64,000 bases of DNA from contig NW_017265149.1 in assembly GCF_001638985.1 (NCBI RefSeq), positions 863,619 through 927,618 of the forward strand, given 5' to 3'. This DNA is from Phycomyces blakesleeanus NRRL 1555(-) (Eukaryota; Mucoromycota; Mucoromycetes; Mucorales; Phycomycetaceae). Below, piece by piece: positions 16,301 to 62,100 of this stretch (its first letter is position 1; the number at the start of each line of letters is the position of its first letter). The position numbers were made by a program, and so were the translations under genes. The notes under the pieces are model-generated. The model ran no database searches, was not told the origin of the DNA, and worked only from the letters and a program-made list of their open reading frames with translations.

Positions 16301-18032
16301 TAAGACCACCGGTGTGGTCGAAGGCAACATTGTTCTTAATGGCGAAGCACTTATGGACGACTTTGAACGTATTACTGGTTACTGTGAGCAGATGGACATC
16401 CATCAGCCTGCCGTTACTGTTCGTGAAGCCCTCCGTTTCTCTGCCTATCTTCGCCAAGACGAGTCTGTCTCAAAGGCTGAAAAGGATGAATATGTCGAAA
16501 AGATTATTCAATTGCTCGAGATGGAAGACATCGCCGATGCTCAGATTGGCATGGTCGAATTTGGATCTGGTATCTCTGTCGAGGAGCGAAAACGTCTTAC
16601 CATCGGTATGGAATTGGTCGGCAAGCCCCAGCTTTTGTTTTTGGATGAGCCCACCTCTGGTCTTGATGCTCAAAGCTCTTACAACATCATTCGTTTTATC
16701 CGCAAACTTGCTGATGCCGGTTGGCCCGTTCTCTGTACTATCCATCAGCCTTCTGCCATTCTTTTCGGTCACTTTGATCATCTCTTGCTACTCGTTCGTG
16801 GTGGAAAGACTGCCTACTATGGCGAGATTGGTTGTGATGCTCACACTATGATTGACTATTTCCAGTCTAATGGTGGCCCCATCTGTCCTCCTGCAGCCAA
16901 CCCTGCCGAGTACATTCTTGAGGTTGTTGGTGCCGGAACTGCCGGAAAGGCTACTCGCGACTGGTCCGAAGTCTGGGCAGGATCCAAAGAGGCCAAGGCT
17001 CTTGAGAACGAACTTGCGGATATCGCCCGCTCTGCCAATAAGAACCCTACCCGAGAGGCCCGTACCTATGCTGCTTCTCACTGGACCCAGTTCAAGCTTG
17101 TTCACAACAGAATGGCTCTAGCATACTGGCGCTCACCCGATTACAACTTTGGTCGTTTCTTGAACATTGTCTTGACTGCTCTCATTAACGGTTTTACTTA
17201 CTGGAAGCTTGGATCGTCTTCATCGGATATGCAGAATAAGCTCTTTGCTCTCTTCAGTACCTTTATTATGGCCATGACTTTAGTCATTCTCTCTCAGCCC
17301 AAGTTTATGACAGAACGCCTTTTCTTCCGCCGTGAGTATGCATCTCGCTATTACAGCTGGCTTCCGTGGGGTGTGTCGACTGTCTTGGTTGAGATTCCTT
17401 ATGTTTTTGTGTTTGCTGCCTCCTTCTTGTTCTGCTTCTACTGGACCACTGGCATGTCCAACACTGCCGAAGCTGGGGGCTACTTTTACATTATGGTTGT
17501 ATTCCTTGTTCTCTGGGCTGTCACTCTTGGTTTTGTTATTGCTGCCGCCTCTGAGCTTCCTACCATGGCTGCCGTTATTAATCCTCTGGTCATGTCTTTG
17601 CTCATTCTTTTCTGCGGTCTCATGCAGCCCGAGTCTGCTATGCCGACTTTCTGGAGAAGATGGATGTACTGGATCGATCCGTTCCACTACTATGTTGAAG
17701 GTCTTGCGGTAAACGAACTTGAACATCTGACGGTTGTATGCACAGACGACAATCTCCTCAAGTTCACTCCTCCCCCTGGTCAGACCTGCGGCCAATACAT
17801 GGCTAATTACTTCTCGTATGGAGGGCCCGGTTATATCGTTAACCCTGATGCTGTCCAGCCTGAACAATGTGGCTACTGCACTTATAATTCAGGTGCAGAA
17901 TACTACTCGACTGTTTATGGCTGGGATGCTGCTAACAAATGGCGCAACTTTGGCCTCATTATCTGTTTCTTTGTCTTTAATACCCTTGTGTTCCTTGGAT
18001 TGGTTTACTGGAAAAGAAAAGGAAAGCGGTAG
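13339..18032 (+). CDS. PDR/CDR-type full-size ABC transporter (ABC-G)
   Basis: This is a plasma-membrane multidrug efflux pump of the fungal PDR subfamily. Exons are 13339-13788, 13885-15298, 15361-15567 and 15655-18032, giving about 1482 aa with frames joining exactly. A 39-nt in-frame GT...AG segment (13544-13582) may be an extra intron, giving 1469 aa. The order is reverse, (NBD-TMD)x2. NBD1 has the PDR-specific Cys in Walker A (GRPGAGCTT, residue about 205), signature GLSGGERKR and the atypical Walker B INCWDCSTRGLD. NBD2 has a canonical Walker A (GSSGAGKTT, about 890), degenerate signature ISVEERKR and Walker B LLFLDEPTSGLD. These asymmetric changes mark PDR proteins with one degenerate ATP site. 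TMDs follow each NBD. The C-terminus ends in a basic KRKGKR. The substrate cannot be told from sequence. Confidence 0.95.
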
Positions 18033-28343: not shown

Positions 28344-30523
28344 CTAAAAAGTCTCTGGGTTAGATGGAAGCAAAGAATCATTGTCAAGAGGTGTGTAGAT
28401 GAGATAACCAACAAAGCCAGAGTACATAATACCCATTCCCATCAGTACAGGCGGATAAGAGTATTCTTTCAGGAATCTAATGCACAGGTAAATATTGAGA
28501 CCAAACAGAATCCAGGAGATTGTCCAGCATATGGTGTGCATCCAGCGGCTGTTTTTAAACGTGCTTGTCATTATTCTACTCGAGCTAGTAAGCTTGAGGA
28601 TTGGAATAATAGCCATAGGAAGGCACAAACTATAGTAAAAAGAGATACATTAAATTATTTTGTGTTATATATTACATGTATTATTGTATATCTATGCTTA
28701 TACCGAGTATCAAACATAAACACTCAAATAAATAGCCTCTATATCTATACCTATTTTATTTTATTTTTTTATTTATTTCTTTTTTACTTACCTTTGCAAT
28801 ACATTCAGAATCTCGCCTAGGGTGTCAAATCTATTGACGGCTAATACAGCCACCATCATACTGGGAACCAATGATATAGTACGAGTGAGAGCAACACGAT
28901 GCCATTGCTTTTTAAATATAGCTCCAAAGAAACCTTCCACAACCTATAATAAATATTCTTTAATATACACATATCATTTTCCAATCCACATGTAAAAAAA
29001 AATCTTAAACTTACATATTGTCCGGCAAGAGTACCTGTCATGGTCGAACTCTGTCCGGCGGCAAGTAGCCCAGCTGCCCACAAATATCGGGCATATTCGC
29101 CCAGCGTGTTCCGTAGCACTTCAGAAGCATCGTACAGACCCGGAAGACTGTCTAGGGTGTTTCCGGGTTCATAAAAGACTTGTGCAAATACCACGACAAT
29201 AGCCAGGTTTATAAAGTAGGATGTCAGGAGTGCCAAACCAGATTCAACAGCAAAATAAAAGTTTGCCTCCTTGAGTTTTCGTTCGCTCGGCTTCTCTCCT
29301 AGATTACGAGACATGACCAATGCACTGTGAGCATTTATATATATATATATATTCAAAAAAAACTTTAATGTCAGCATAATGATATATAATGATATGTATC
29401 CATGGTTACATTTTCTCTCTCTTTACCTGTGAAGAAACATATTGTGAGGCATAATAACGGCTCCAACCATACCAACTGCTTGGACAGCTGCATGCTCGGG
29501 AATTTCGGGTATAAATATGCCATGAAGAATATTAGGAATACTTGGATGAGACGAAATCATCTCAGCCCAGAAACAGGCGATCATGACTCCGATCAAGCTC
29601 ATGAAGAAGACCTCGATTTTGCGGACGCCATATTGTTGCAGCCACATGAATAAGAATGTGTCAAAGGCTGTGATCAACACCCCTACCGGAAGGGTAAATC
29701 CAAAAATGATCTTTAGGGCAATGGCAGTACCCACGATTTCTTGGATGTCAGAACCAATGATTGCAAGCTGAGTAAAAGCCCACAAGAGATATCCTACAGG
29801 CCGGCTGTAGCTGTCCCTGATCAACTGAGCCAAATGTTTTCCGGTCACCACGCCCAACCTAGCCGACAGGATTTGAATAACTAGCCCTATTTAATATAAG
29901 CATATAAGTATGTGTGTTTTGTATATGTAAAGCCGAGTATTTGAGCGTGGCTTATTAGTTTGGACTATTAAATAACCAAATACACACATACACACATATA
30001 TATATATATACCCCACACACACACAGACACACACACATAATTCATTAAACTTTACCAGCCCCATGAGCCCACAAGAGTAACCAAAGAAGCTTGTATCCTG
30101 CGACTGCACCTGATTGAAGATCGGACTCAAGATTACCAGGATCCAAATAGGCAATTGCCCTATAAAAAATATACATACAAAAAAGAAAAGAAAAGAAAAA
30201 GGTACACAATCGAATTAAATTACGACAGAAAAAAAAACTTAACAACTCTATTCCTAAAGAACAAAAGACATACATAAAACTTACATTAACCAACCGGGAC
30301 CACTGTAAAGCATAAGTTTTTTCCATGAAAAGTATGGCTCATGTTCATTTTCATGTTCATGTTCTTGATCCTGATTGGTGTCGACCTGACCTTTGACATC
30401 CACTTCGACATTCCATTCGTAATCTTGCAATGGCTGGTTATTTGACAAGCTCTGGTAAGAAGGAACATTTTGTCTCAATAAACCGTCTCGTTGGCTCGGA
30501 CCGTTCGAATTGGATCCAGCCAT
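28344..30523 (-). CDS. NRAMP/SMF family divalent metal transporter
   Basis: Six exons (30285-30523, 30056-30159, 29427-29886, 29015-29324, 28792-28943, 28344-28629) join in frame to 516 aa. It is a proton-coupled importer of Mn2+/Fe2+ and similar ions. Diagnostic motifs are DPGN at residues 86-89 in TM1 ([16 protein letters not shown]) and MPHN at 260-263 in TM6, both of which coordinate the metal, plus the transport signature [16 protein letters not shown]. The N-terminus is hydrophilic with a repeated [12 protein letters not shown] stretch, a possible cytosolic metal-sensing or sorting tail. The length matches yeast Smf proteins. Vacuolar/endosomal or plasma-membrane localisation cannot be decided from sequence. 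Confidence 0.93.
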
Positions 30524-33424: not shown

Positions 33425-36400
33425 CTAATGTTTAATATCATCTAGTGGAATAGGTTCGTTTGGTAGGTTTTCCAAGTGCGCTTCTCTCTCTCGTCCAGTC
33501 TTCAATACAAGCTCTATTTCACGAATAATGTCGTTGTCATACGGATAGTACTGATGAAGGATATGTTTGGCTGCCACTCGGGGTACAAAGCAGGCCACAA
33601 TCGCAAGCATCAGGACGAGCCAATAGAATCCACTACCAAATAATCGCAGGTGTCCAGCAAAGATAAAGGTATTGAACTGGGAATAGATGGCTACAAACAA
33701 ATAATACACCAGAATCGAGAGAGCAATGATTCCAACCTGGATCCAAGTGTAACTGTAGAGCGAAAAGGCAATAAAAATGTTTGCCACGCACACACCAATA
33801 CTCGACATAATGGTACCCATTTCGTAGAGTCCATTGGTCGAATATCCATTGACATCAAATGCACCGGCAACAAATAGAATGTACGGGAAGAAAAAGGAGA
33901 CCGCTGATTGGTAGATCGCATCAACAACCGTGAGCCAGAAACGCCAGGTCTTGAATTTGTCGTTACGGAGACCCATATGGTAAAGTTCGGGGTAGTGCAG
34001 AGAAAGTCGGGCAGACAAGTCTTGATCCCAAATACCGAGAAAAATGATCGGAAGAGAGGTGAAGATGAGATTGTAAAGTGTAACAAGAGAATAATCAAAG
34101 GTCATTGAGCCATTGAATCTATTTGAAGAAAAGAAGAATTTAGTAAATAAGGTCATGTTTAGTATACTACAACTATATTTCATCAAGCCATGTCAAAAAC
34201 TTACTGGCAAAAAATCTGATACCAGAACAACATAAAGGTCCACACAATATTCTTAAAAAAGAATCCCATAATCGTCTCAGCTGTACGCAGGTAGGACCAG
34301 CGACCGTGAACGAGCAATAACTTGCGGAGGAATCTGAACTGTGCAATTGCATAATCAGAGGCCATCACAGCCTGTCTTCCTTCGACGCCACTGATACCAA
34401 CACCAACATTGGCCGACTGAATCATTGCCACATCGTTTGCACCATCACCAATAGCCAGAGTCATGACCTTGAGTCCCTTCTTGACAAGCATAACAACCTG
34501 TGCCTTTTGCTTGGGACTCACTCGACAACAAATGACACTTGCGCACTGCATGCCAAGGTCCAGGAGATCATCCTTACACTCATTTAAAAGAGCATACCGA
34601 AGAGTCGTACCGTCAATAACCAGTGCCCGCTTCTTTCCTGAGCTGTGTTCGGATGTCTCCAGTGCTTGTTCAAGTTGAGCCTTGGTCTCTTCTCTTGTCT
34701 GGGCCTTTATAACAACCAGCTCCATATCGACAGTCAAGAGATTGCAGGAGAAACCGATGTTGATCGCTGTCTCGGTTTTATCACCAGTCAGGACCCACAG
34801 TTTGATACCTGACTTGGCCAATTCGGCAATAGTTTCTGGCACACCTTCCTGAAGACGATCTTCAATAGCAGTACCTCCCATCAACAGCATCTCGCGCTCA
34901 ATTCCTTCACACACTTCGTCAATCTTCTCTTCGCGACCGTGGATACTTGCGCTGGCTTCCTCGTATCGTTTGTTCCATGCAGCATATTCATCATTGGCAA
35001 TAAATCTATATGCCAAGCCCAGGGTTCGAAGACCTTCATTAGCAAATTCCTCCAGGGCATCTGAAGTGGTCTCGCGTAACCGGGCCTGAGACTCAGCCAG
35101 GGCGGTCTGGTTTCCAAACTCTGTGCACAAGCGTTCGAAAATGATAGAATCGGCACCTTTGCAGAGTAATACGATCTTGTCGCTGCCTTCGGGTCGGACA
35201 ATGACGCTCATTCTTTTACGTGTAGAGTTAAATTCGAGGATGTTTAGCAGCGTAAATCTCTGCTCCTTGCCTTTCACCAAAACGGTCAAGGTGCGAGTCT
35301 TGGCAGTGTGGTTCAAGAACACGAAGCCAAGATCACGAGCAGTTCCGACAAGTGCAGCCTCATCGGGAGACTGGGCCTTATATTCGATTTCGTCTTCGTT
35401 GTCCGGGTTGTTTCGTTCGGGGATCGCAGTGTGGCAAATTGCAAGTGCCAGACCGAAATGCTCCATCATTTGCGAATGTTCGTCACCCTTACCGAGATCT
35501 TCAAAGAATGCAGGGTCGACAAATGTGGGATTTCCGACGTGAGGGTTGTCGAATTGCTTGGCCTGTATTTCGAGCATGCGTTTCTTTTCTTCTTCCATGA
35601 TTTCGTTGCTCAGCTCCTTTTCGCTTTCGTTTGTGTAAGACGATTCGTAGTCGTGGATTTGAGTAGAGTTTTCGGTATGACGAGTGTTCTGAGTACGCAG
35701 ACGAGCACCTTGGCTAGCTTCAGTGGTGCCAAGCCCGTAAGATACTCCGTTGATTGTACACTTGCGAAACTCCATCACGTTTTGGGTTAGTGTTCCGGTT
35801 TTGTCAGAAAATACGTATTCAATTTGGCCAAGATCGTCAGAAATATTCCATGTTTTCGGAATACAGGGAGCATCTGTTGGTTCATAATACATGTCGATAT
35901 CCGAGTAAATGAAATAAGCCTAATCATAGTAATAATAGTAATAAGTAAATGGCTTATAAACACATTATACATTGATATCAATATACTTACAGCAAACGTC
36001 TTGACAATTTCAACTGAAATATAGAGTGAAATTGGTACAATATTCTGGTACAAAATCAATGTAACCCTATAGTAAAGAAGAAAATTTATATATTATTATT
36101 AGTATCATTACTCTTTTAAATTCTATATATAAATATTTATACTTGTATTTGTAGCTATATCTGTAGTAAATTATATCTATAATTATAATGATATCTATAT
36201 TTATATTTATAGATGTGTATATATATATTAAGAATATATATGTAATTTACCAAAATGTTAAGAATCCAGAATATGAGCCACTGCTTCCTTCAATGTCGTA
36301 GTCAAAGTAGCGTGATGAACCTTTGCCATTGAATTGAACACTATCGATTACGGAACTCACTATACACATTATTGCTAAGATTACAAAATTGGCAATAACC

Positions 36401-38006
36401 TTAAAAAAATTGTATTAGATAATGTTCTTATAATAGATAAAATACCAAGGAATTATGTTTGTGGGGCTTGTTTACTTCACTTTACTTTATATTATTATTT
36501 TATATGTTTAAAACTTACATGTGGATTTGTACCCTTGGCCATTTTGCTTCGCTTGGAAGGAGTTTGGCCAGAATTGAGCATGATTTTGGTTTCACTGCCG
36601 GTATAGACTACCATACAGATTACCCATTCGGTATTGCGCAATACACAGCCACGAAGAAGCATGTTGTTGTATGTAACTGGATCGGATTTCTGGTGTTGTA
36701 CTCCTGAACGCAATGTCGCTGTCTCGTCAACTTCTTCGATTTCCCAACGAAGAACAGCGCTGTATTGGTATAGGTTCACATGTGGAGGCTCGCTCTCGAT
36801 ATAGAATCTTGCTCTTTCGCAGTCATGAACAGTCTTGAGGTCACTTGTGCCGGGCAAACCTTGGCGAGCCTTGAGATTTGTCTCACCATCAAGATTCTGT
36901 GTCTCGACATAGCACAGGTTGTCGGCGTCTGAGGTGGACAGGACGATGACATCTGCTGGTACATCTTCATTGTTACGGATTTTGATGTAGTCTCCTACTT
37001 GAACGTCCTGCCAGCGAGTTTCCTCCCATGATGCCTTGCAGTCGATTCCAGGAGGGTCTGTTGGATGACTATCGGCACAGCGTAGACCTGGTGCGACAGT
37101 AGAAGGACGACGGGGAGGGGAAGTGTCGTTTGTGGCGGTACGATAGAGGACGGAGTGTGGGATAGATCCTGGTCTGTATGGCATTTTGTTATTGTTGAGG
37201 TTGTTTTTAGAGTTGAGATTACTGCTGCTGTTTGGGTTGAGCATCCTACTGATTGAACGCAGGGTGTCAGACCGAGGTCGGAGATGGTGATGGGCACGCT
37301 TTGGCTCAGTTAATGGTAATGGTAGGACTTGATCAGAGTTACGAGGGGATCCGGTGTCTGTAAGAGGCTGTTTTTCTTCTTTGGGTCTGCGTTGCTTGGC
37401 ATCTTTTGATTTTGAGTGTCGATAGAGACGGGCGTACTTATTTTCTGCGCCTGAGATAACACAAATGAATCCCCACGCGACTTTGAGGATGTGGAAACGA
37501 CCCTTGGCTACTTCTGGTAAATTGACATTACGCCAATTCTTCAAGCCAAGAACCTTTGCCTTATTGACTCGTTGATCACTTTTACTACGTTTCATGTCTT
37601 CTATACCGTCTTTGATTGCTGTGATAACGATAATGACAATCAAAGGTAGGGCGGATACGGCGGGTTCTGTGACGCCAAAGATTGGGATGCATTGGAGGAC
37701 GACGAGGAAAAGGAAATAGAGATTGGCGACGTTACGGAATTGTTCAAACAAGTTTTTAGGTACGAATGAAAGGATGGTGTATTTTGCTGTTCTAATTCGA
37801 TTGTTCGCATAGTGTCGGTCGATAATACGTCCTTTGTGGTCATATTCAGACTGGGGTAACTTTGTATTTACGTAGATATTGCGACGCTGTTGCATGTACG
37901 ACGATGTCGACTCTGTTCTTCGGAGCTCTTTTTGTTCCTCTTCATTCTTCAGCTGCTCTCTCGTCTTCTTGTGAAATAATGCCTTTACTCGAAGAGATTT
38001 ATTCAT
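33425..38006 (-). CDS. P4-type ATPase phospholipid flippase (Dnf1/2-like)
   Basis: Five exons (36519-38006, 36251-36399, 35991-36066, 34205-35919, 33425-34118) join in frame to 1373 aa. It moves phospholipids from the outer to the cytosolic leaflet. Visible motifs are IRTAKYTILSFVPKNLFEQF before TM1, actuator loop NLDGETNLK, PISL in TM4 (VPISLYISVEIVK), phosphorylation motif DKTGTLT with Asp about 610, KGADS in the nucleotide domain, and hinge GDGANDVAMIQ, then six C-terminal TMs. The long N-terminus and the roughly 130-residue polar, basic and Asn/Ser-rich insertion between TM2 and the actuator domain fit the Dnf1/Dnf2 class better than Drs2 or Neo1. Function needs a Cdc50-type beta subunit, which is not encoded here. 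Confidence 0.95.
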
Positions 38007-40934
38007 AATGATTATCTAAATAGAGTAATAAATTCTAAACAAGAAAAAAAAAGTTGTCCAATGCTATCAGCATGCATGCATATATGTATATATTATATTA
38101 TTGATTTAACATTTATATCATAAATGCTATAAAGATATATACAAATATAAAAGAAAATAGGCGTACCTTTTTTCATATATATATAATATATAATTGTTTA
38201 ATATGTATAGGAATTAATTAAAGTAAAGATGTATATGGATATGTAGCAAGATGTATCTAACAATACATTAGCCTATATATATATATATATAAAAGGGAAG
38301 AAGAGGAAGAAGAGGAAGAAGAGGAAGAGAAAGGCTTAGTTCCTGGGAAAGTGAATATAAAATATGAACGAAATAAAATAAATAAATAAAAATAAAATAA
38401 AATATAAGCGGGAAACATAATCTTTTCGTACTCAAGGGGAAGGGGGTGGACGACAGAAGGGAGAGGGACCGATAAAGGCCCGCAAGTTTAAAAGCAGGGT
38501 ATCCTATTAGATATCGTTGTCCCACGTGGAGAAGGACTCCAACGACTCTAGCGACGATCCGGTACTTTATTGAACCAGCACTCGGCTAAACACAACCCGT
38601 TCATTCCCACCTTTGGGATTTGAAGATGGTCATTTCACGCCACCCAGGCTATTTAGAATTGACTAAGCAGGTGCTATTGGGTCAGGGCCACTATATCTTG
38701 ATAGCTGCTCTTAACCCACACAGAATTTGACTTTTATATCTATATAAATATGTGTGGGTCTTGTTTCTTTCTTCGCTTCTTTACCTTCTTTACCTTCTTT
38801 ACCTTCTTTGCTTCTTTGCTTCTTTGCTTCTTTTGTTCCCTATTCCTTCCTTACCCTTTTTTTTTCTTTATCAACACAGGTCAAACATATTATGACAAAG
38901 ATTCCAAGGTTCTATATTTATTTTTTTATTTTGTACACAGCATATCACTGTATACGAAAAACAAAAAAAAACACAAAAAACAAATGGCAGACATTACAAC
39001 TCAGACATTACAACTATGAGCAATACGTTACGCGCCTTGCAACTTTCTCTAAGCCAATAGGATCCTAACATTTGGTTTTTAGTGTCTCATTTATTAACAA
39101 ATGGGAGCTGTAGAGCTCCAGATATTTAAAACATCTTTCAACCAATTGGCTCTATTGCGTAATTAACCAGACCTTGTTAGACACTGTAGAAAGGTTTCAG
39201 TGCTTTGAAAGCAGAATGATATGGAAGCCATTGGATGTCTTGAATAGGTTTCATAAAAAGAAAACCGGAAGATCTCTGTGGACCTTTTAATCAAAATTTT
39301 GTACATATTTGTTTCAGAATTTATCATAATTTTGTCAATATTATAATCTTAAAAAAAAGAATCAAAACAATCCAACCGATTAGTTGGAAAATTCCTATTA
39401 AGGCGACATATTCTTAATGGTGGTTGTGATTGACACAGTGACTATAGTAACATAGTGGTAAGTAGCAGCAGTTATGTGTGTGTATGTAGGCTTTATTTTC
39501 ATTACATATAGTTATCGATTGATTGATTGACTAACTGACTGACTGACTGGCCAACTTCTTTGGTCTTTCTCATCTTTATTTCTAACTTCAATTTATTGGT
39601 CTGTGCAAATACAATAATACAAAAGAGAATTACTTCTAGACGTATTGTCTGTTCAAATAAGACTTTATGATGTACCTAAATGTAATGCACGACTAGCACT
39701 TGCCAGCCACATGGCTCACGGTCACATATCCCTTTTCTCGGATTAGTAACTGCATGCCTAATGCTACTCTTGCAGCCAACTCCTTACGCAAAGTACCGCA
39801 GCAATTGTGCATCATCAAAATCATTGGCAACAAACGAAGCAGTGTCCAGATTGAGAATGACAATAAACATAAGTATATAATTAACTTGCCATCAAAATAG
39901 CAAGCTGTCAATTTTTTTGAGAGCAAATTTTTAATTTGCAATTTATTAGTTTGCAATACGCCGATCCAACTATTTTTGCTGATTGCCAACTTTTATTCCC
40001 AAGATCCGCCCTTACTACCACTAATACTATTAGTGCTTTAAATAAATCATATGTATGTACAAAGCTGATAATGCAGTCAGCAGCTTAGTGTATAGGAGAA
40101 AATTGTTAAGCCTTGCATAATTTATATTCAAACTTATGCTCTATATCTACATGCTTTACCATACAACTCATATGCACAAAATATGCATACATTTGGAAGG
40201 TACAAAAAAAAGCAATTAACCATGTTATCTTGACTGGTTTATAGCAAGTTTATAAATAAAGGCATATTTCCCAGCAACAACAAAAAAAAACTTTTGATAC
40301 AGACTATTAAAGTGTTTAAAAGCATTACATCATTACCACAATTATCAACATTGACACTGGTACTGGTACTGGTGCTAGCACTAACACTAACACTGGACTA
40401 TTGTTTTGTAAAAATGCAAATACACTATCTACGCCTAAAAGTTATCGATAAAGGCTTGAAAGGTTAAATTGATATACGGATTCCCAAGGTAAGATTAATT
40501 TATGTGGGTACGATCTAGACCTTTTGGTCGCTATAAGTATTATAGTTGCGAAAAATTAAAATCAAATAGACGTACCCGGAAACTAGTCAAAGAAAAAAGA
40601 AAGAAAGAAATCTATTGACATTGTGCTTCACATTATAGGCCTTAAGGATTAATGGGAAATGAATAAACGCGAATCTTATTATTATGGCTATGTTGATATT
40701 TTAATTAATTAACTACTATTGTTTCCTTTTTGCAGCAATATATCTTGAACACCCCATTTTACTTATAAATACGCGTGGAATTCAACCACAAAGTAAATAC
40801 CCAATGTCAAAAAAAAAGTGTTTAACCCAAAACGTACAAACTCCTCAAAAGTCGAGTACTTCTTTTTCTTTTTACAGAAAAAAAATGTGCCTGGGTTATG
40901 TTACAATACTTGCGAGAGCGAAAGGTTGATATGA
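38007..40934. other. Long intergenic stretch upstream of the flippase
   Basis: The first 800 bases hold the flippase promoter and leader with AGGAAG repeats (38290-38332) and a GC-richer block (38400-38720). Beyond that lies a cttctttac array (38763-38832), then AT-rich DNA. A plus-strand reading at 39665-39840 has several Cys/His but many stops and no identifiable family. No intact gene is visible. Confidence 0.5.
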
Positions 40935-42706: not shown

Positions 42707-44872
42707 TCATATGTCGCGATAAAGAGGATCAAGGTACCATTTTGAACACGATGGATCCTGGGGAATATGCTTCTTCTGCTCGTCGTAAAGACTGTCAAAT
42801 AGCCGGTCGGTCTCACTGCCGCACTCTCTATTCGGATTGCGTCGGACATCTTGTCCAGTCTTACTCTTTATAATTCTATCGTCATTAGGCACCATTTGGT
42901 CCCGACCCAGAATCTCGTTCTTGTCCAGAACCACTGTCGATAACTCGTTCTCTACATGACTATAGTTATGATTATGTTTATGATTATGATTATGTTTATC
43001 ATCATGGCTATTTGGTCTTTTGCCACTTTTAGACAATGTCTGCGAATTTTCAGGCAAGTGATTATTATATATGCTTTTCAAGGGATGACTGACGCCAATA
43101 TAGCGAGATTGAAAGTCGTTCATGATCGCATTTGGGTCAAGACAAAGATCAGGCGTTAGGCTGCCCTCCCTACTTATATTGCTCGACCATCCTTGTCTAA
43201 TTTCTTGTGGTGAAGGAAGATATTCAAATGCAGTATAATAGCTATCGGTAGCTATCGAACTATCTCTCGAATACTCTTCGTTCATAGTAGTCATAGGTAT
43301 CATGTTGTGTATAATATCAACACACGTTTGACAGGACGAGGCACGTAGTAAATGGTCTTGGATATCATCTTCATAATTACTAGCGGAGCCATTTGAGCCA
43401 GAGAGATCATCACCATCACCATCGGACTCGTAAATTTGAAAATCATCACAATTGTGTCCAAGGGGATCAGTATGAGGAGGAGAAGGATCTAAAGAAAATG
43501 GCTCGGCCCAGCACGCAAAACGCAACAATTTTCCCTGTCTTGGCTTTCGGAAAGTAAACTGGATAGTATTGTTGCCTTCTCGAACCAGACAGCGGGCCGG
43601 CAATCTCTCATTAACACTAGCCAACTGATCAACCAAAGCATCATTGTACTCTTTGTTGTCAATGTAGATCGATCCTGATTTCAGTATTCTTGAACCTGAT
43701 TTAGACAAAGGCCTGGCATTCTTCATCTTCACATCATCTAAAACCTTTTTATTCACTCGCTCTCTATATTCCGCATTGTTTCGATTGTCTTCAGGAATAG
43801 ACAATTGGTCAGGCTGGCTGGGGACATTATTTACTAGCTTTGCTTCTGGGTTTGAGGCGTCTTGAGCAGATTTACCACGAAACATCTTGTGTATACGCGT
43901 GTTAATGGATTCCCATCTCCTTGGAAATTTTGATTTCTTGTCTTTATCTGAGCTTGTTGTGGCTCTTGTTTGGGATGATTGTGAATGTCCTTCGTCGTCT
44001 TCTTCTGCTGCTGCTTGAATTGATGATTCAATTGCGGGAACAAAGGAGAACTCTTTGGTGTTTTCTATCTTGATACCGCTCGACTTTCCATAGTCAGATT
44101 TGGCACTTTTAGTATCGCTAACAATATCAGCAGTACAAGATGTGTCTGGTGCACTATCGATTATTGCAATAGCGGCAGAACTGAGAGTAACATCAACAGG
44201 CGGGTCCGACTGAAATAATGGGGATCCCTTGAATGGATCGAAACGGACAAAGGGCTCGGGAAGTAGTTGTACATTCCAATTCTCTTTATCTTTATAATCT
44301 GCTCTAAAAGCTATTTTCTGAACTTTATCTTCTATGACCGATTTTTTCTCACTTTGCTCAATATTCGATGAAAAATATGAACTTCCTTTGTGTTTTGGTT
44401 CTTTTGTTCTTGTTCTTGCTGTTGATGGTATATCTTCAGGTGAACTTCCATTAGGCGCAAAAAGGGATGAATTAGTTGCCTCTCCATTATTATTACTGTG
44501 GGTCAAACTTGGCATGTTGTTGGTATCCATTGTATCTGCACTATCTATTTGGACATAACAAGAGAGATAGTTTGACATAGATGTATCTGTCCCCTGAAGT
44601 GCTTCTGGTGATAGTTGAGGAACATAATATTTAACTGGACAGGGATCTATAGTAAGGCTTGGCTGGTTTCCAGAATGACCTTCGGTTTCCTGGTGAGCCA
44701 TTAATGCCTCTTGTTCTGGTGGCTGCAATGTAACTGATGTTTCATTGGTAGTCTCCAAGGGTTTACGTGCAAGGGCCTTAGCCTGATCTTTATCAAAAAC
44801 TCTCTCTATTTGATTGGGTCTGTTTCGACGCAAGACACGATCCAGTAAGGAACGTTTATAGGTACTTGACAT
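42707..44872 (-). CDS. Hypothetical 721-aa hydrophilic protein, single exon
   Basis: One uninterrupted ORF of 721 codons, ATG at 44872, is the longest intronless gene in the window. The product is polar and Ser/Asp/Asn-rich with no signal peptide or membrane segment, so it is probably cytosolic or nuclear. More ordered pieces are KIAFRADYKDKENWNVQLLP (about 200-220), PRRWESINTRIHKMFRGK (about 320) and RCLVREGNNTIQFTFRKPRQ followed by GKLLRFACWAEPF (about 430-465), the last resembling a small beta-rich domain. A His/Asn tract (HNHNHKHNHN, about 625-637) is encoded by a tatgattatg repeat. The basic N-terminus has KRSLLDRVLRRNRP. I do not recognise a family. Confidence 0.8.
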   Translation of the reverse strand: MSSTYKRSLLDRVLRRNRPNQIERVFDKDQAKALARKPLETTNETSVTLQPPEQEALMAHQETEGHSGNQPSLTIDPCPVKYYVPQLSPEALQGTDTSMSNYLSCYVQIDSADTMDTNNMPSLTHSNNNGEATNSSLFAPNGSSPEDIPSTARTRTKEPKHKGSSYFSSNIEQSEKKSVIEDKVQKIAFRADYKDKENWNVQLLPEPFVRFDPFKGSPLFQSDPPVDVTLSSAAIAIIDSAPDTSCTADIVSDTKSAKSDYGKSSGIKIENTKEFSFVPAIESSIQAAAEEDDEGHSQSSQTRATTSSDKDKKSKFPRRWESINTRIHKMFRGKSAQDASNPEAKLVNNVPSQPDQLSIPEDNRNNAEYRERVNKKVLDDVKMKNARPLSKSGSRILKSGSIYIDNKEYNDALVDQLASVNERLPARCLVREGNNTIQFTFRKPRQGKLLRFACWAEPFSLDPSPPHTDPLGHNCDDFQIYESDGDGDDLSGSNGSASNYEDDIQDHLLRASSCQTCVDIIHNMIPMTTMNEEYSRDSSIATDSYYTAFEYLPSPQEIRQGWSSNISREGSLTPDLCLDPNAIMNDFQSRYIGVSHPLKSIYNNHLPENSQTLSKSGKRPNSHDDKHNHNHKHNHNYSHVENELSTVVLDKNEILGRDQMVPNDDRIIKSKTGQDVRRNPNRECGSETDRLFDSLYDEQKKHIPQDPSCSKWYLDPLYRDI

Positions 44873-45095
44873 TTGATTTTTCTTTCTACTCTATATGTTT
44901 TTATAAATATTATATAATAAAATATAATCGTTGTGTCGGAAAGAATACTTGTGGTTGATAATGGCAAATGTAATTAAGCAAAAAGTTATAGGATAAGGAA
45001 GAGGGCTCATCCTTTTTCGTTTTTATGTCTTAATTAAAGAGAAACTTGCGTAGCTTACAAAGGAAGTAAAAGATGATTAGTTTATCTTTCAATTC

Positions 45096-45485: not shown

Positions 45486-46366
45486 ATGAAGTAATGTATT
45501 TCGTTCATTCATTCATCCATCCATCCATCCATCTGATGCATCTGCCATGAATGTACTTGTCGAATTCCATCTGACTTATTTCCTACCTTCCCTTGTGCTA
45601 TGTTGACCCCTTTCACTATAATAATTACACCAGGCTTGAGATTTGCTCCTTCTCTGGCCACAAGATCTACCCTTCCAAGGGTAAGACTTACGTCCGCATT
45701 GACAGCAGGTAAACAATTTCTTGAAAATTATGGAGAAGACAAGAGTAGGATTAGAAAGAATAGAAGAAGGAGAGGAGAATGTATAAAATTGAATTGAATA
45801 CAATTGATGATTGCAAGATTGCTAATTACATCATTTTTTTAATTCATTAAAATGTTTTTAGAGTAAGCAAAATTATACATCTATTACAGACATACATTCC
45901 CCATCGACGATTACCGAAACGCTAAAAAATTAGTTGTACACCTTTTGTATTACTCTTTTGCATTGTTACTTTTTTAATATTCTAGAGCTTCCGTTTCATC
46001 AACGGCAAGTCCGAGTCCTACTTCCTCCAGCGTCTTAACCCCCGCAAGATCAAGTGGACTGTCATCTACCGCCGTTTGAACAAGAAGGGTATCACTGAGG
46101 AGATCGCCAAGAAGCGTTCCCGTCGTACTGTTAAGCACGAGCGTGCTGTCGCTGGTGTCTCCTGGGATGCTATCCGCGCCAAGCGTAACCAGAAGCCCGA
46201 TGCCCGTGCTGCTGCTCGTCAGGCCGCCATTGCCAAGTCCAAGGAGGCCAAGAAGGCTGCTGCTGCCACCAAAAAGACCACCACTGGCTCTGCCGCTCAG
46301 GGTGCCAAGGTCTCTAAGCAGGGTGCCAAGGGTTTCGCTCCCAAGGCTGCTGCCACTTCTCGTTAA
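45486..46366 (+). CDS. RPL24: 60S ribosomal protein eL24
   Basis: Exons are 45486-45490, 45634-45708 and 45988-46366, about 152 aa. The first coding exon is only ATGAA, and the third base of Lys2 comes after a 143-nt intron, an arrangement common for ribosomal genes. The product matches eL24 throughout: [58 protein letters not shown] and [20 protein letters not shown], then the Ala/Lys-rich tail. It is a component of the large ribosomal subunit at the intersubunit face. The acceptor used for exon 3 (after tctagAG) keeps the frame but leaves DSSFRF, one residue shorter than the usual DS-x-x-FRF. Codon use is markedly biased (AAG, GCC, CGT), as expected for high expression. Confidence 0.95.
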
Positions 46367-48641: not shown

Positions 48642-50680
48642 ATGGGATTTATAACCAGGCTCACAACTAATGTCTACGTATGTATCGAATATATACTTTG
48701 CAATTCATCATACAATAAATACTCATCTTTCTTGTTTTACTGTCAATAGGCAATTGGTGGTTTTGCTGCCATTGCTGGTATCTTGTTCGGTTTCGATATT
48801 GGTTCCAATTCGGTAAATATTTATTAGTATTCTTGATCTTACCTGATTTGATTTGATTTGATCTGATCTGACCTACCCTGACCTACCCTGTTCTGACCTA
48901 ATCAAAATCGACCAAATAAATAAATAAAAATAAAATAAAATTTTACAAATTTTCTAACAATATTCTTTATGTAATTTCTTTTTTGTTTAAAAAAATATAG
49001 GGAATTATCGGTACAACTCAATACCTCGAATACTTCCACAGCCCAAGCGATCTTTTGCAGGGTGGTATCAACGCCTCTCTTAGTGCTGGTTGCTTTGTTG
49101 GCGCTTTGGTTTCTGGTTACCCCGCTGATCGTTTCTCCCGTAAATACACCTTGATGGGTGCCTCTCTTCTCTTCGTTCTCGGTGCCGTCATTCAGGCTGC
49201 ATCAAACGGTGTCCCCATGTTATGTGCTGGTCGTGTTCTTGCTGGTCTGTCTGTCGGTGTTACTTCCATGGTTGTTCCTCTTTACCAATCTGAGATTGCT
49301 CCCAAGGAGATTCGTGGTCGTATTGTATCTGTTCAGCAATGGAGTATTACTTGGGGTATTATGATTTCGTAAGTATTCTTTTTTTTTTAAAAAAAAAACA
49401 ACTTTTATATATTTTCTCTAATAATTTTTCTATCCTTCCTTTTATTAAGCTTCTGGATTCAGTATGGTTGTCAGTTTATCCATAATACTGCTGCTTTCCG
49501 TATTCCATGGGGTGTACAGGGTATCCCTGCAGTTATCTTGTTCTGCGGCATGTGGTTCTTCCCCTTCTCCCCTAGATGGTTGGCTGATAATAACCGTATG
49601 GACGAAGCTATTAAGGTTCTTGCTGATATCCATGGTGATGGTGACATTAACCACCCCCGTGTTCAACAAGTAAGTAATCATTCAATAATGCTTTACAAGA
49701 AAAAAAGAAAGAAAGTAAACTAATATTTCTCTCTCTCTTTATAGGAAATCAAAGAAATTCAGGCCGTTATCAACTTTGACCGCAACATTGCCTCCCACCG
49801 TTACAGTGATCTTCTCAAGCCTGGAATTAGATACCGTGTCTTCCTTGGTGTCTGTCTTCAAATCTGGCAGCAGCTGACCGGTATGAATATTATCATGTTC
49901 TACGTTGTCTACCTTTTCCAGCAGGCTGGTATCGGAAGCTCTCAGCAGGCCACTCTTGTCTCGTCCGGTATCTCTTACGTTGTTAACGTTGTCATGACTG
50001 TTCCTGCCATTCTTTTCGTTGACAAGTGGGGTCGTCGCCCTACCATGATTTTCGGTGCTCTTTCCATGTCTCTCTTCCTCTGGATTGTCGGCGGTATCTT
50101 GAGCACTGGTACCTGGACTCTTGATGCCAAGGACAAGTGGACTGTCGATATCGGAAGCAAGCCCAAGGCCGATGCCGTTGTCGCCTGTATCTACCTCTTT
50201 GTCGCTTCCTTTGCCACATCTTGGGGCCCTCTCGGATGGATTTACCCAGCTGAAATCTTCCCTATTCGCGTTCGTGCCAATGCCGTTTCTATGTCTACTG
50301 CCTCCAACTGGCTTTTCAACTGGCTCCTCAGTTTCGTTGTTCCTATGTTGATGCAGCGTCTCCGTTTCGGTCTTTACATGCTCTTTGCCGGTTTCAACTT
50401 CTTGATGGCTCTCCACGTCTTCCTTGCTTACCCCGAAACCAAGGGCTTCACTGTAAGTTTTTTTTTTAAAAAAAATTCGTCGTCTTGTTTTGAATGTTTA
50501 TTTACTTATTTATTTTCTCACTTTTTTTAGCTTGAAGAAATGGATATCGTGTTTGAGCACAACCCTCGCAAGAAGATCTCGCGCTCTATCATTGAAAAGG
50601 AGTCCGCAGACCGTTTCCGTACCCTATCTGAGGGATCGATCAATGAAAAAGAAAAGATTGCTGTCAGCAGTGATGTCTAA
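48642..50680 (+). CDS. MFS sugar (hexose) transporter
   Basis: Exons 48642-48677, 48750-48812, 49001-49368, 49450-49669, 49745-50452 and 50531-50680 join in frame to 514 aa. It is a plasma-membrane monosaccharide transporter of the major facilitator superfamily, sugar-porter family. Motifs in order are FGFDIGSNSGIIG (TM1), PADRFSRKYTLMG (loop 2-3), VPLYQSEIAPKEIRGR, PRWLADNNRMDEA, QIWQQLTGMNIIMFY (TM7), DKWGRRP (loop 8-9), GWIYPAEIFPIRVRA (TM10) and YPETKGFTLEEMD. The length is typical. The C-terminal tail is short and charged. The promoter has a clear TATA box and a possible carbon-repressor site. Glucose is the likely substrate, but the sequence does not fix it. Confidence 0.95.
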
Positions 50681-51995: not shown

Positions 51996-52691
51996 ATGCA
52001 AATTCGTAGCTTGATTATAGTTCTTGTTACAACGACAGCTTTATTAACCCACGCTGTCCCACTTTCACCCAAAACATACAACAAAAGCCTTAATAGGCGT
52101 TCGGGTGTAACCGTAAAATCGTCACCTAGTATCCACCAAGAATTTACTACTACAGATACTTCGACTGATTCATCCAGTGATGACTTGTCCCAAAGTTCAA
52201 CAAACACTACTAATTCAACTATCGTATCATCTCCTGTAATTCATCAAGAAACCATTTCCATTGATACAACCACTGGCATGACAACAACGACAACTTCAGA
52301 TACTACGGTTTCGGCCCCAGTAACAGTGATCACAACTGATGAAGATCCAGAGGATGGACCCAAAGAAGCCGATAAGAAAAATACTAAGCGCTCAAGTTCA
52401 AGTATCGATATAAACACAGACCCTATAATTGATCAAACCTTGGTTTCTGTTGACACTTTTGTAAAAAGATCTGCAGATCATGACAAGAAAAATGCCAATC
52501 CTGCTAGTGTGATCATATATAACTGTCCGGGGCATAGACAAGCTATCATTACAGCCGATGACTACTCTCCTTCAATTGAAACCAAAAGGCCCAGATCGAA
52601 TGGTCCCCATTTGAACCCTGCATCCCCTCAAGGTTTAGCATTACCACAAAGTGTGGACTACGAAGCCTCTCCTGATGCTTTGTCTGGTTAA
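51996..52691 (+). CDS. Secreted repetitive precursor with dibasic (kexin) sites, 231 aa
   Basis: A single-exon ORF opens with a clear signal peptide (MQIRSLIIVLVTTTALLTHA, cut near residue 20). Dibasic pairs stand at 34-35 (RR), 131-132 (KR), 157-158 (KR) and 197-198 (KR), splitting the chain into five peptides. Within it a motif repeats imperfectly: SSPSIHQEFTTTDTST (42-57), SSPVIHQETISIDTTTG (78-94) and TDPIIDQTLVSVDTF (141-155). The first two lie between Ser/Thr-rich, probably O-glycosylated stretches. Only one Cys occurs (177), so there are no internal disulfides. This plan (signal peptide, repeats, Kex2 sites) is that of fungal kexin-processed secreted peptides or pheromone-like precursors. 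No known family recognised. A TATA box at the expected distance supports expression. Confidence 0.75.
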   Translation: MQIRSLIIVLVTTTALLTHAVPLSPKTYNKSLNRRSGVTVKSSPSIHQEFTTTDTSTDSSSDDLSQSSTNTTNSTIVSSPVIHQETISIDTTTGMTTTTTSDTTVSAPVTVITTDEDPEDGPKEADKKNTKRSSSSIDINTDPIIDQTLVSVDTFVKRSADHDKKNANPASVIIYNCPGHRQAIITADDYSPSIETKRPRSNGPHLNPASPQGLALPQSVDYEASPDALSG

Positions 52692-57580: not shown

Positions 57581-59159
57581 TTAGTGAGACTTCTTGTAGA
57601 CTCTCAGGCCATCGTCCTTGTGGTCCTTCTTCAATGCTAAACCGATACGCTCACCATCGGAATCAAAGGTAGTATAGAAAGCGTTTGTGAAAGTTGTGCC
57701 AAGCACCCAGTCACGCTCCGAATTGCCACGGCTGAGACGTGTGGTGCAGTAGCCACAGCAGTCGGTGGCGTTCTCTCGGTGAACCCAGTACTTTGCAGGC
57801 AATTCAACAATGTGGTCTTCCAGAGTTAGCTTGAGAGTAGGAAGCTTCTCGGCCTCGCAGCAAACGAAACGATAGGTCTTGTCAGAAGCATGATATCTTC
57901 CACCAAATGTATCGTGGAACTTGTCAGCTATTTATTTTATTTCATTAAAAAAAAAGAAGAATTAATTAATATTCAAAAAATAAAATAAAATAAAAAATTT
58001 AATCAAATCTTATCTTACCTTGATGAGGAGGCATAACAATAAATTGACTTGAAGTGCTAATTGAAGCAATGGCATTTGGAAGCTGCTTCATGTTGAGTTC
58101 ATTATCAAAGTTGGCGTCACGGATACAGACATCCCAGCCATGTGCGTCTGCGTCTCCAGTATTGGCAAGTGGAATGTATTCAACATCACCGCTGATAGCT
58201 GAGGTATCAACACCACCTATTTTTTTTTAAAAAATAAAAATAAAAATTAATATTTCTTAGTATATAATTGTGTATATAAAAGTTATTTTTAATATGATTA
58301 ACTTACCAATAACAAGATAGCCTGCAACTTGTGTTTGGGGGTGGTAGTTACGTTTAACAAATCCAAATCCGCCAGATACGACACCAGAACTACTGCTAGA
58401 TGAAGTAGCAGCCGCATCAGCAGAGGTTGTGGCTGTGGCCGCAGTAGAGTTATCGGTTGTTGTGTCAGATTCTGTTGCGCTAGTTCCGGTTCCAGATTGA
58501 CTGAAGCCGTCGTCGCTTGTAGATGTGGTGTACATGCCAAACTGAGAACTTTGGACACCGCTGCCTTGTTGATAAGCGTTGGGTACAAAGGCTGAGGCAG
58601 GCAGGGCAACATCTCGCTTGGCAAGACCAGTAGATGAAGATGTGTGGAGTTTAGTGCTGTTGAAGTTGACCGAGCGTCCGAGGCCAAGATAGCCATCAAA
58701 ACCATCGTCAAATCCGCTCATACGGTAGGCTCCACCGAAAGGCATGTCGTGTACTGTCAGACCGGCGAATTCGAAAGTGTCGAGGTACACATGTGTGTCC
58801 ACACAGCTGTCGCCGTATTCAACCGAAAATTTCTCGCCGGTAGAGGTAACCGTAGAGGAGCGTCTGGCGTAGTATGTACAACGATCCAAGCAATTCTCGG
58901 ACTTACAACGGGAGCCACGGATCCAAGAATAGCCTGTTGTGGTGTCAAAGGCTACAGTGAATTCTTGGGGGGGAGTACCAATCTTGACTGTTCCGGACAG
59001 AGCACCGTTGTCAAGCTGATATCCTGCTGCTTTGGTGATTCCAGTCTGATTAGCAGGGTTGGTGCGACGGAACAAAGGGATTTTTACTGGCGTCGGGTCT
59101 GCGGTGACGGAGAGCAGTAAAGGAGCAATGGCTGCGATGAAAAAAGTAGAGTAGCGCAT
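57581..59159 (-). CDS. Secreted pepsin-like (A1) aspartic-protease homologue, predicted catalytically inactive
   Basis: Exons 58307-59159, 58019-58216 and 57581-57927 join to 465 aa. The start at 59159 begins a signal peptide (MRYSTFFIAAIAPLLLSVTA); the longer upstream ORF is 5' UTR. A short pro-region ends in RR (31-32). A1 fold marks are present: GTVKIGTPPQEFTVAFD, the flap Tyr in VEYGD, FDGYLGLG, and the C-terminal WVLGTTF with a Cys pair region. The first triad is Asp72-Thr-Thr (family: D-T/S-G). At the second triad the conserved AIxDTGTS reads AIASISTS, i.e. Ser336-Ile-Ser, so the second catalytic Asp is missing. Known mechanism requires both Asp residues, so hydrolysis is unlikely. A Ser/Thr/Ala-rich insert (about 225-275) and two KR sites lie in the linker. 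The ORF is intact, so it is a maintained pseudoenzyme rather than a pseudogene. Confidence 0.88.
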
Positions 59160-62100
59160 CTTGTGATTTGGGGATTGACTGTCTATCAAAAGACTGAAAA
59201 TGGATACCAGACAAATAAAAAATAAAATAAAAAGAGGGAGATTGCAGGTGCAATAAATAAAGACAAAATAAAAGGGGGTGGACGAGATATTTGATTTCAC
59301 AAGCAAAAAATAATAACAATAATAATTTTTTTTTTGGTTGCTGTTGTGATTTGGGATTGTTGTTCTTGTTGCTGTTTATTGGTGATGGTGATGGTGGATA
59401 TCAGAAAATAATCAAACAAAGAGATTCTTTTGTAACGACTGATGCTTTTGTTATTGTTGTTGTTTTAAAGAAAAGGAAGAATAATAAAAAAAGGGGGATT
59501 AAAGAGGGGTTTTTTTTGTTGGAGGTCTATTGTTCTTCTTGGTTCTTCAAGAGGTCTGTCCAAAGGGCAAATGAAAGCCGGGAAAAGAGTGCAAGAAGAA
59601 AGAAAAAGGAGCGCACCCAGGGCAAAAATAAGGACTTATAAAAGGCTGAAAATAATTTGACTCGACTGAATGAATAAATAAATAAATAAAAATATAAAAA
59701 TATATATATAATATTTATAATGCTCGATTAACGGAGAGAGAGAAAGACAGAAACCCCAAATATAGACATACAAACATATTTATATATTTATTATACAAAA
59801 GAGGGGTTATATATATCATGTATATATCATGTATATATTTGTATAAGATGTACATAATCAGCCAATTATAATAATGGAAGAAGTTACCGTGTGGTGTTAT
59901 TCGTATTGACTAGTTTATTCAATTATCCTCCTTTACATAAATCAACATTGTTCCTTTGCCAAGTAGATTCACCAAGCTTCCTCACACATATATTGCCATG
60001 GTTTCTTAATTATGATTTAATATCCGATCTATTCAGCAGCAATGAACGGGGCGCTCGATCGAGTTCCCATGTTTTCCTCTGCGTCTAAAATAGATCGAAA
60101 AGAACGCTAGGCAGATTCACTTCTTTTTCCCTTTTTCCTTTTCATATGAAGTGTACCAGTCACATTCTAGACTAATCTTGCAATCAAATCTAAAAAAAAA
60201 AAGAAGCAAAATCTCACACAAGGCAAGACAAAGTCAGTTAACTCTTCGTTCCTGGATGTTACACTGGCATTGTTCATTTTTATTCTGTAAATAGACCTCT
60301 TTGTTATTCTTTATTAGGAATCTTGGCAATTTTTCTTTTTTTTTTTTGATCTCTTGTAAGTCTCTCGAGACACAGACAAAAAAAGCAGGTGGTGTATTGG
60401 TTGGGTCATTCGTCCCGCAATTCAACGATTTTATTTAGTTATTTTTATATACATAAAAATAACTCTAACTAACTAATCGTTAAATATAAATGTCTTTATT
60501 TTACTACATAAATTACAATTTTATATCGAGTATTGAGCAGTAAGGTATCAATAACTAGCTACTCTAAATATGGTATATCCCTTTGCTTCTTCTTCTTCTA
60601 TCGACTTTTTAGACATGGTCTTTCTCCTTGGATCCTTTTATTGCTTTAAAATACTGGTGGCGCACAAATTGGTCAAATTGCCTTTAATGGGCTTTTGATC
60701 AATATATGAAAACACCGACCAGTGACCATTTTTGTTTCAACTATCAGCTTAGTCTAAACTGACAAATGTCAGATCTTTTGTCCCAATCAAATTACACTCC
60801 AACATAGCCTATCAAATAAGTATTCATCTTTCTTTTTTATTATTTACAAAAATAGATAAATAAATAGCTTTTTATATTCATTCATTTAACCGTGTATTTA
60901 ATAATTCATCAGACAATCTTTTTTTTTGTTTTTTGTTCCAATAACTTGAAGAGTTACAAAGGATATTAGAGGCTACATGTCTAATTCTTATATAGAAAAT
61001 AAAGTAAATGGTAAATCTCTGGCAAATAAGCACTCAGAAGAAGAAGAATAATAATAATAAATCAATTAGACGTGTTATCATGACTGCTGAATAGCTTTCC
61101 TTGTTTACTAATCAAAGACTAGTTTGTCATGACAGAATACACACCCAACATTAGACTGAGTATAATAAATATAAAGACATGCTAAAAATGATATGTCAAC
61201 TCGATTTAAACCATATATACCGTATTTGTAATAAAAATTGATGATATTTGAGAGCAAGCTCTACATCAATAAATGCTTAATTTACGATTAGTGATAAAAT
61301 AAATGGATCAAAAGTCAGGATTCAAGAAAGAGTATTATGTAATTCAGACTTTCAAATCCAAACACATAGTCTTTGTTTTTATTTTTATTAATACAAAAAG
61401 AAGAATAAAAAAACATTGCAGTGAAGTGCAATGCAGTGTAATTTTTAGTACATGTATAAATATATTGAAGTGAATGAATGGTTAAAATAGTGAATTATTG
61501 TGCTCTTAATTGAATAAATTGGCTAAAGGATCACTTATTCAGGAGAATATGAAGATTAAGGGTTAGCTGTGCCGAGATCATTTTTATTATCATTATTCCT
61601 AAAGCGTGCCAATTATGGTGATAGCCTAATAACAAAAAAAAAATCCTCCCCTTCTTGTCAGTGCCACCAAAAGAAGCCTGGACCATAGTGGGACAGAACC
61701 TTGGGTACTACCATTCTGACGTTCAATATTACTCCGTCCATTAAGCACATATTTGCCAATTTTATAATTAAAATGAGAGATTTGGTTGGCTGACAAGATT
61801 ACAGATATCCTTTATTTTTATTTTTTATTTTTACTTATCTACATTGAATTATTCTTAGGTTCATCTCCAACTTACGGACCCGAGGCTTCAAATATTTATA
61901 GGTCTTGGATCAACTCCAAACCATGCAAATATCGTCTTGCATAATCCGCACAGCCCATATCTGAGCAAAGTTTGATTCAAGCTTCTTTAAATAACCTATT
62001 TACTATTAATTATGTATTACTTTTTAATTAATTTATATCGACTGCGACAGTCACACTATGTACATTTCTTTTTTTTTTTAAAAAAAATGTATTATATTAT

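Follow-up and report, generated by a model that had tools for sequence, protein, structure and literature searches.

The open reading frame at positions 51996..52691 (forward strand) of a 64,000-nucleotide stretch of the Phycomyces blakesleeanus NRRL 1555(-) genome (contig NW_017265149.1, positions 863,619 to 927,618; hereafter the window) probably codes for a diverged member of a family of Phycomyces repeat precursors that are processed by Kex2. An intronless reading suffices to take the frame from ATG to TAA, giving a secreted-looking repeat protein of 231 residues. Database protein P0001 of the same species is equal in length and shows a single difference (L64 to S), and the P. nitens protein P0002 (220 residues) is a further relative. 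The window lies on C16 of the organism's 53.5-Mb genome, and a search of this genome located an unlinked paralog of 287 residues on C6 (L002 922-1785). For the family as a whole, the sequences support well that a secreted repeat precursor is processed by kexin, because KR precedes four of the five units of the paralog at an exact period and two dibasic sites are common to the three proteins. A first-pass annotation of the window had proposed a new kexin-processed secreted peptide precursor. The paralog, the two shared sites and the kexin loci described below bear this out for the family, while the number of sites and of peptides had been overstated.

Putative signal peptide and dibasic sites

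Residues 1–20 of the window protein (51996..52055, +) form a putative signal peptide, in agreement with the first-pass annotation. They contain the hydrophobic stretch LIIVLVTTTALL, with a 12-mer at residues 6–17 of mean Kyte–Doolittle (KD) hydropathy 2.69, and both A20 and P22 are common to the window protein, the P. nitens relative and the paralog when the three are aligned. Signal cleavage is predicted after A20 because of the contexts THA|VP (window protein), VQA|VP (P. nitens) and AQA|AP (paralog); as read by eye, these suggest that signal peptidase would cut the window protein there. From this N-terminus we infer that the protein enters the secretory pathway.

The four dibasic sites described earlier are present. 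KR or RR starts at residues 34, 131, 157 and 197, compared with 0.57 such sites expected from composition (P ~0.0009, 20,000 composition-preserving shuffles), and KK occurs in addition at 127 and 164. The four positions had been given as peptide ends; they are the first basic residues of the pairs, and the last residue of a trimmed peptide would be the one before. R34-R35 (52095..52100, +) lies ahead of unit 1 and is conserved, as RR in P. nitens and KR in the paralog. At K131-R132 (52386..52391, +) each of the three proteins has KR with Ser after it, and R35-S36 and K131-R132-S133 are invariant across the alignment. K157-R158 (52464..52469, +) falls opposite a gap in P. nitens. K197-R198 (52584..52589, +) is followed by Pro, the local sequence being TKRPR here and SRPR in P. 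nitens. Proline directly after KR (P1') is an unfavorable context for kexin and, given this residue, K197-R198 is probably not cut. The residues after the four sites are SG, SS, SA and PR, so that XA occurs only once.

Repeat units of the window protein

The motif P-x-I-x-Q-x(5)-D-T was located at residues 44, 80 and 143, and the three imperfect copies reported from the first inspection are thus beyond chance: a looser form of the motif (gap 4–6) appeared at least once in 302 of 200,000 shuffles of residues 21–231, and twice in none. The top self-match of the protein pairs residue 36 with residue 72, an offset of 36, and scores 54 against a shuffle maximum of 47 (n = 500). Two degenerate units, 3 and 5, are present besides the three motif copies listed at first.

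All five units can be placed on the forward strand. Unit 1 (residues 36–57, 52101..52166) is identical at 21 of 22 residues in P. nitens and at 19 of 22 in the paralog. Unit 2 (residues 72–93, 52209..52274) has no dibasic site ahead of it, lies 36 residues from unit 1 and aligns with unit 2 of the paralog. The candidate unit 3 (residues 102–116, 52299..52343), a weak assignment read from the alignment, is matched to paralog unit 3 with its middle missing. Unit 4 (residues 135–156, 52398..52463) scores 45 with paralog unit 2 and 44 with unit 4, compared with 36 for unit 1 and 31 for unit 3. The degenerate unit 5 (residues 170–191, 52503..52568) matches paralog unit 5 best (33, versus 10–19 for units 1–4) and has the motif proline in common with it.

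The paralog

The paralog has a more regular layout, in which a signal-like peptide and a short propeptide are followed by KR-SGVTVNSSPSIHQEFTSTDASTRPAKDDEPKNHA-KR and onward. Its KR sites are at residues 34, 70, 106 and 142, each followed by SG. The motif proline recurs every 36 residues exactly, at 44, 80, 116, 152 and 188, and the best self-match scores 110 against a shuffle maximum of 52 (n = 500). Units 1–3 are 34 residues each with KR on both sides and are identical at 23 to 29 of 36 positions in pairwise comparison; unit 4 has KR at its N-terminal side only, and unit 5, which starts ASVIIY, has no dibasic site ahead. The units are of two alternating types, PSIHxEF (units 1 and 3) and PKIDEKF (units 2 and 4), with scores of 94 and 104 within a form and 76–81 between forms.

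The paralog was absent from the results of all three protein collection searches, and may be unannotated or modeled differently in protein records. None of 463 window frames (at least 50 residues) matched any of the 141 such frames that flank the paralog within about 10 kb to left and right at E 1e-4, whereas a control with the paralog added did match. Because no flanking frames are shared, a recent segmental duplication is unlikely; the comparison is silent on an old one.

An exact 20-base stretch at unit 5, CCTGCTAGTGTGATCATATA, is common to the two genes (window 52500-52519; G000:C6:934666-934685). Allowing up to two mismatches, it occurs at only those two places in the genome, while unit 1 synonymous sites are near saturation. 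It may reflect chance, conversion or constraint at the DNA level.

Unit correspondence, selection and the P. nitens relative

In the alignment the window protein runs along the repeats of the paralog, 86 of 229 aligned residues being identical, and the offset from unit 1 to unit 2 is 36 in both. Window unit 1 matches paralog unit 1 best (score 96). The motif proline and aspartate are invariant over nine units of the two P. blakesleeanus genes, a count made without window unit 3, which is degenerate, or the units of P. nitens. Two points speak against a strict correspondence of units: window unit 2 scores 51 with paralog unit 1 versus 42 with unit 2, a preference also seen in P. nitens, and unit 3 is barely recognizable (4 of 15 residues). 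From the alignment we infer a five-unit ancestor of both genes. This ancestor probably resembled the paralog, the window gene having lost sites later; homogenization of the paralog units would be an alternative direction of change.

Unit 1 is under strong purifying constraint between the paralogs. Over residues 36–57, 14 of 17.0 synonymous and 3 of 49.0 nonsynonymous sites differ between the two genes, compared with 28.7 of 44.6 and 34.3 of 126.4 over residues 1–57, the exact ratios being rough since synonymous change between the genes is near saturation. Within the paralog, the proportion of nonsynonymous differences is below that of synonymous ones (pN < pS) in all six pairs of units 1–4, compared over 24 codons in pairs with unit 4 and 36 in the others. 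A functional core is best sought in unit 1.

The P. nitens protein is 57% identical to the window protein by BLASTP and 60% in the alignment. Judged from identity at the protein level, it is likely to be the ortholog of the window gene, because 130 of its 220 aligned residues match the window protein versus 89 of 220 matching the paralog. As to the check on orthologs suggested in the first-pass annotation, the repeats, R34R35 and K131R132 are kept, and K157R158 and K197R198 are missing. P. nitens retains two of the three motif copies exactly; in the other, Glu replaces Gln. Identity is higher in the units (73 of 101 residues) than in the rest of residues 36–231 (41 of 95; Fisher p 4.6e-5, with unit boundaries that were set after viewing the alignment). 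Most of this comes from unit 1 (21/22) and unit 2 (17/20), and little from unit 4 (9/20). Like its counterpart in the window protein, P. nitens unit 4 scores best with the PKIDEKF form of the paralog.

Proposed processing and alternative explanations

Two kexin-like loci with S8 and P-domain (P_proprotein) matches were found in the genome, and behind each, as seen by eye, comes a frame containing a transmembrane-like segment; most fungi carry one to three kexin genes according to a subtilase survey (PMC5371821). Matches to S10 carboxypeptidases and to the N-terminal domain of DPPIV are also present and were left without assignment to Kex1 or Ste13. In the processing route proposed here, the window protein would enter the secretory pathway through its N-terminal signal, and kexin would cut after R35 and R132, the conserved sites, removing a 15-residue propeptide. 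These cuts would free a Ser/Thr-rich fragment of 95 residues (36–130 after trimming of K131-R132) carrying units 1–3, and a C-terminal part with units 4–5, in which a further cut after R158 would be possible in P. blakesleeanus and not in P. nitens. The paralog would release 34-residue peptides of the two alternating types. Calculated monoisotopic masses are 3609.693, 3576.766 and 3553.631 Da for peptides of the paralog and, for the window protein, 9893.61 Da for the unmodified fragment 36–130 and 2565.27 Da for 133–156; any glycosylation would alter these values. Modeled alone, the 95-residue fragment gave an all-beta AlphaFold2 structure with short strands in units 1–3 (mean predicted local distance difference test score, pLDDT, 76.5; a shallow model). 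Outside the cell, the products may act as beta-structured peptides of the surface or wall, as the Rep1 repellents of Ustilago do, a function proposed by analogy and only tentatively; a signaling role is a close second.

Several observations weigh against this processing of the window protein. No KR or RR precedes units 2 and 3, leaving units 1–3 on one fragment. Two of the four proposed cut sites, K157R158 and K197R198, are missing from the P. nitens relative, and the cuts at conserved sites leave a 95-residue piece instead of several short peptides. The missing sites would also fit a secreted Ser/Thr-rich wall or matrix protein that is cut by Kex2 at R35 only, to remove a propeptide, and whose repeats are modules of one mature beta-rich protein from which no peptides are released. 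Conservation of the dibasic pair at 34–35 in all three proteins, a Ser plus Thr content of 30% beyond residue 20 and the strands modeled over units 1–3 agree with such a protein, and several wall proteins and propeptides are described as Kex2 substrates (PMC2515848, PMC8528282). It is weakened by the invariance of K131-R132-S133 in the three proteins and by the regular KR at the unit boundaries of the paralog, and we consider it rather unlikely.

Processing could also proceed as proposed with a different outcome, the peptides of both genes binding a receptor and unit 1 being the active core. Unit 1 is near-invariant across paralogs and species while the next spacer differs, and the paralog alternates two unit types, as might a true signaling precursor. 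Nevertheless, the 95-residue piece left by the conserved cuts in the window protein fits this poorly, no Ste13-like XA/XP repeat follows the sites (there is a single Ser-Ala, after R158), and the mating pheromones of Mucoromycotina are given as apocarotenoids by Le Marquer et al. 2019 (PMC6339444). A receptor ligand is accordingly judged unlikely here, and the mating pheromone put forward among the options in the first-pass annotation is less likely because of this apocarotenoid chemistry (PMC6339444). Decay of a pseudogene, or a chance reading frame, could explain the divergence of units 2–5 and why the window protein lacks the sites that precede units 2 and 3 in the paralog. The frame is open and of similar length in both species, and open again in a further P. 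blakesleeanus record; together with selection on unit 1, this makes decay or chance very improbable. The repeat precursor processed by kexin remains our preferred reading of the window gene.

Relation to known repeat precursors

The KEX2-processed repeat proteins (KEPs) were defined by Le Marquer et al. 2019 (PMC6339444) and resurveyed by Umemura 2020 (PMC7329392). In the first definition, cutting at KR or RR gives at least four fragments, of which at least three share a similar motif as detected with FIMO (PMC6339444); in the second, at least three tandem repeats of at least 8 residues each lie between Kex2 sites (PMC7329392). Table 1 of Umemura counts 357 KEPs in 38 of 39 Mucoromycota strains (PMC7329392), and Le Marquer et al. 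describe larger KEP peptides in Chytridiomycota and Mucoromycota (PMC6339444). A signal-like peptide, repeated units and dibasic sites are likewise found in the Phycomyces proteins. By inspection, and not by the published pipelines, the paralog has at least three KR-bounded repeats, as in both definitions. The window protein fits only in part. Cutting it at KR/RR would give five fragments, of which 36–130, 133–156 and 159–196 each contain a unit by eye rather than by FIMO, unit 5 being degenerate, while the P. nitens relative, with two sites only, would give three fragments and fall short of the four. The family may thus be called KEP-like, with the paralog as its one clear candidate KEP, and the window protein is not filed as a proven KEP. 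It had at first been said that no family was recognized. This holds for the profile databases, where nothing reached the curated cut-off of Pfam or NCBIfam, and not for the KEP class, which has been described and is frequent in Mucoromycota (PMC6339444, PMC7329392). The Phycomyces family would be new and its kind, kexin-processed repeat precursors, known; the published supplementary KEP lists lie outside this comparison.

Rep1 of Ustilago maydis is likewise a precursor with repeats separated by Kex2 sites. Its peptides of 37 residues, which affect hyphal wall properties in the account of Le Marquer et al. (PMC6339444), are close in length to the 34-residue peptides of the paralog, and they are described as forming amyloid-like fibrils (PMC9769878). 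Rep1 is described as having ten repeats (PMC2515848), compared with five units in the Phycomyces family. Unlike Rep1, neither Phycomyces protein has a strongly hydrophobic stretch past residue 30 (top 19-residue KD means 0.47 and 0.49). By unit length and architecture, and not by comparison of sequences, Rep1 may be the nearest functional analog.

The ascomycete precursors of the alpha-factor type share with the Phycomyces family a signal peptide and Kex2 sites between copies. Alpha-factor units are shorter than those of the Phycomyces family. The Phycomyces units also lack a repeated Ste13 signature, as examined for XA/XP, and the pheromones of Mucoromycotina are of another chemical kind (PMC6339444). 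For ustiloxin-type ribosomally synthesized and post-translationally modified peptides, the genome gave no PF11807 (UstYa, DUF3328) match, a result that is uninformative since the control was positive in 0 of 14 genomes. Six C. cinerea KEP knockouts are reported with no apparent phenotype (PMC9769878), which advises caution in functional claims. Among the open-license papers listed, no title concerned the window gene or peptides that kexin would release in Phycomyces.

Database searches and other genes of the window

The protein collection searches gave 2, 3 and 2 proteins at E up to 1, and those accepted come only from P. blakesleeanus and P. nitens. P0003 and P0004 were rejected, their resemblance being confined by eye to the IPDIPK tail of the paralog. 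Two of the searches limited scoring to the candidates with the most words in common, 7992 and 7985 in number, and one of them missed P0002; distant relatives may therefore be missed. Six matches were obtained in the own-genome search: the gene itself, three pieces of the paralog and two weak matches, on C2 (E 0.019) and C24 (E 2.9), which were rejected. A second own-genome search recovered both genes, plus two matches confined to the tail.

Sub-threshold matches were treated as chance or composition. These were Pfam RepB_primase on the window protein (E 0.13), Pfam MBF1 (E 0.0012) and Defensin_propep (E 0.098) on the paralog, NCBIfam TimP on the signal peptide and an NCBIfam match to the proline-rich tail of the paralog at 33.1 of the 1700 bits of the cut-off; the single match in a Protein Data Bank (PDB) sequence search (E 1.6) was handled likewise. 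In the fold comparison no solved fold was prominent, and a missing match there shows nothing; the weak rows for staphylococcal G5/E modules and membrane-attack-complex sheets may merely share a beta arrangement.

Elsewhere in the window, Pfam assigns ordinary gene frames to a PDR-type ABC transporter (15609-18032, +), an Nramp transporter (29423-29890, -), a phospholipid-translocating P-type ATPase (34201-35919 and 36495-38015, -), ribosomal protein L24e (45986-46366, +), a sugar transporter (49001-50530, +) and an aspartyl protease (57581-59375, -). For an open frame of 727 residues at 42707-44890 (-), Pfam gave no match at E 0.001. Scanning the window with Rfam and for tRNA genes found nothing, ARAGORN having been run in its bacterial setting.

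Significance

What KEPs do in Mucoromycotina and in other early-diverging fungi is yet to be elucidated according to Le Marquer et al. 2019 (PMC6339444). The family described here makes the question concrete and testable in a classic model fungus: there are two genes, candidate cut sites are defined, peptide masses are predicted, and the conserved core could be made by synthesis. Moreover, a regular KR-bounded precursor can be compared with a relative in which the first spacing is retained and two of the cut sites are lacking, so that the evolution of such precursors becomes readable. As a speculation that we hold with considerable doubt, kexin may release from the Phycomyces precursors beta-forming peptides of 34 residues, alternating between two types, which serve the fungus either at its surface, in the manner of Rep1, or as signals outside the cell; the window gene may then have switched from single peptides to one fused 95-residue product with three units.
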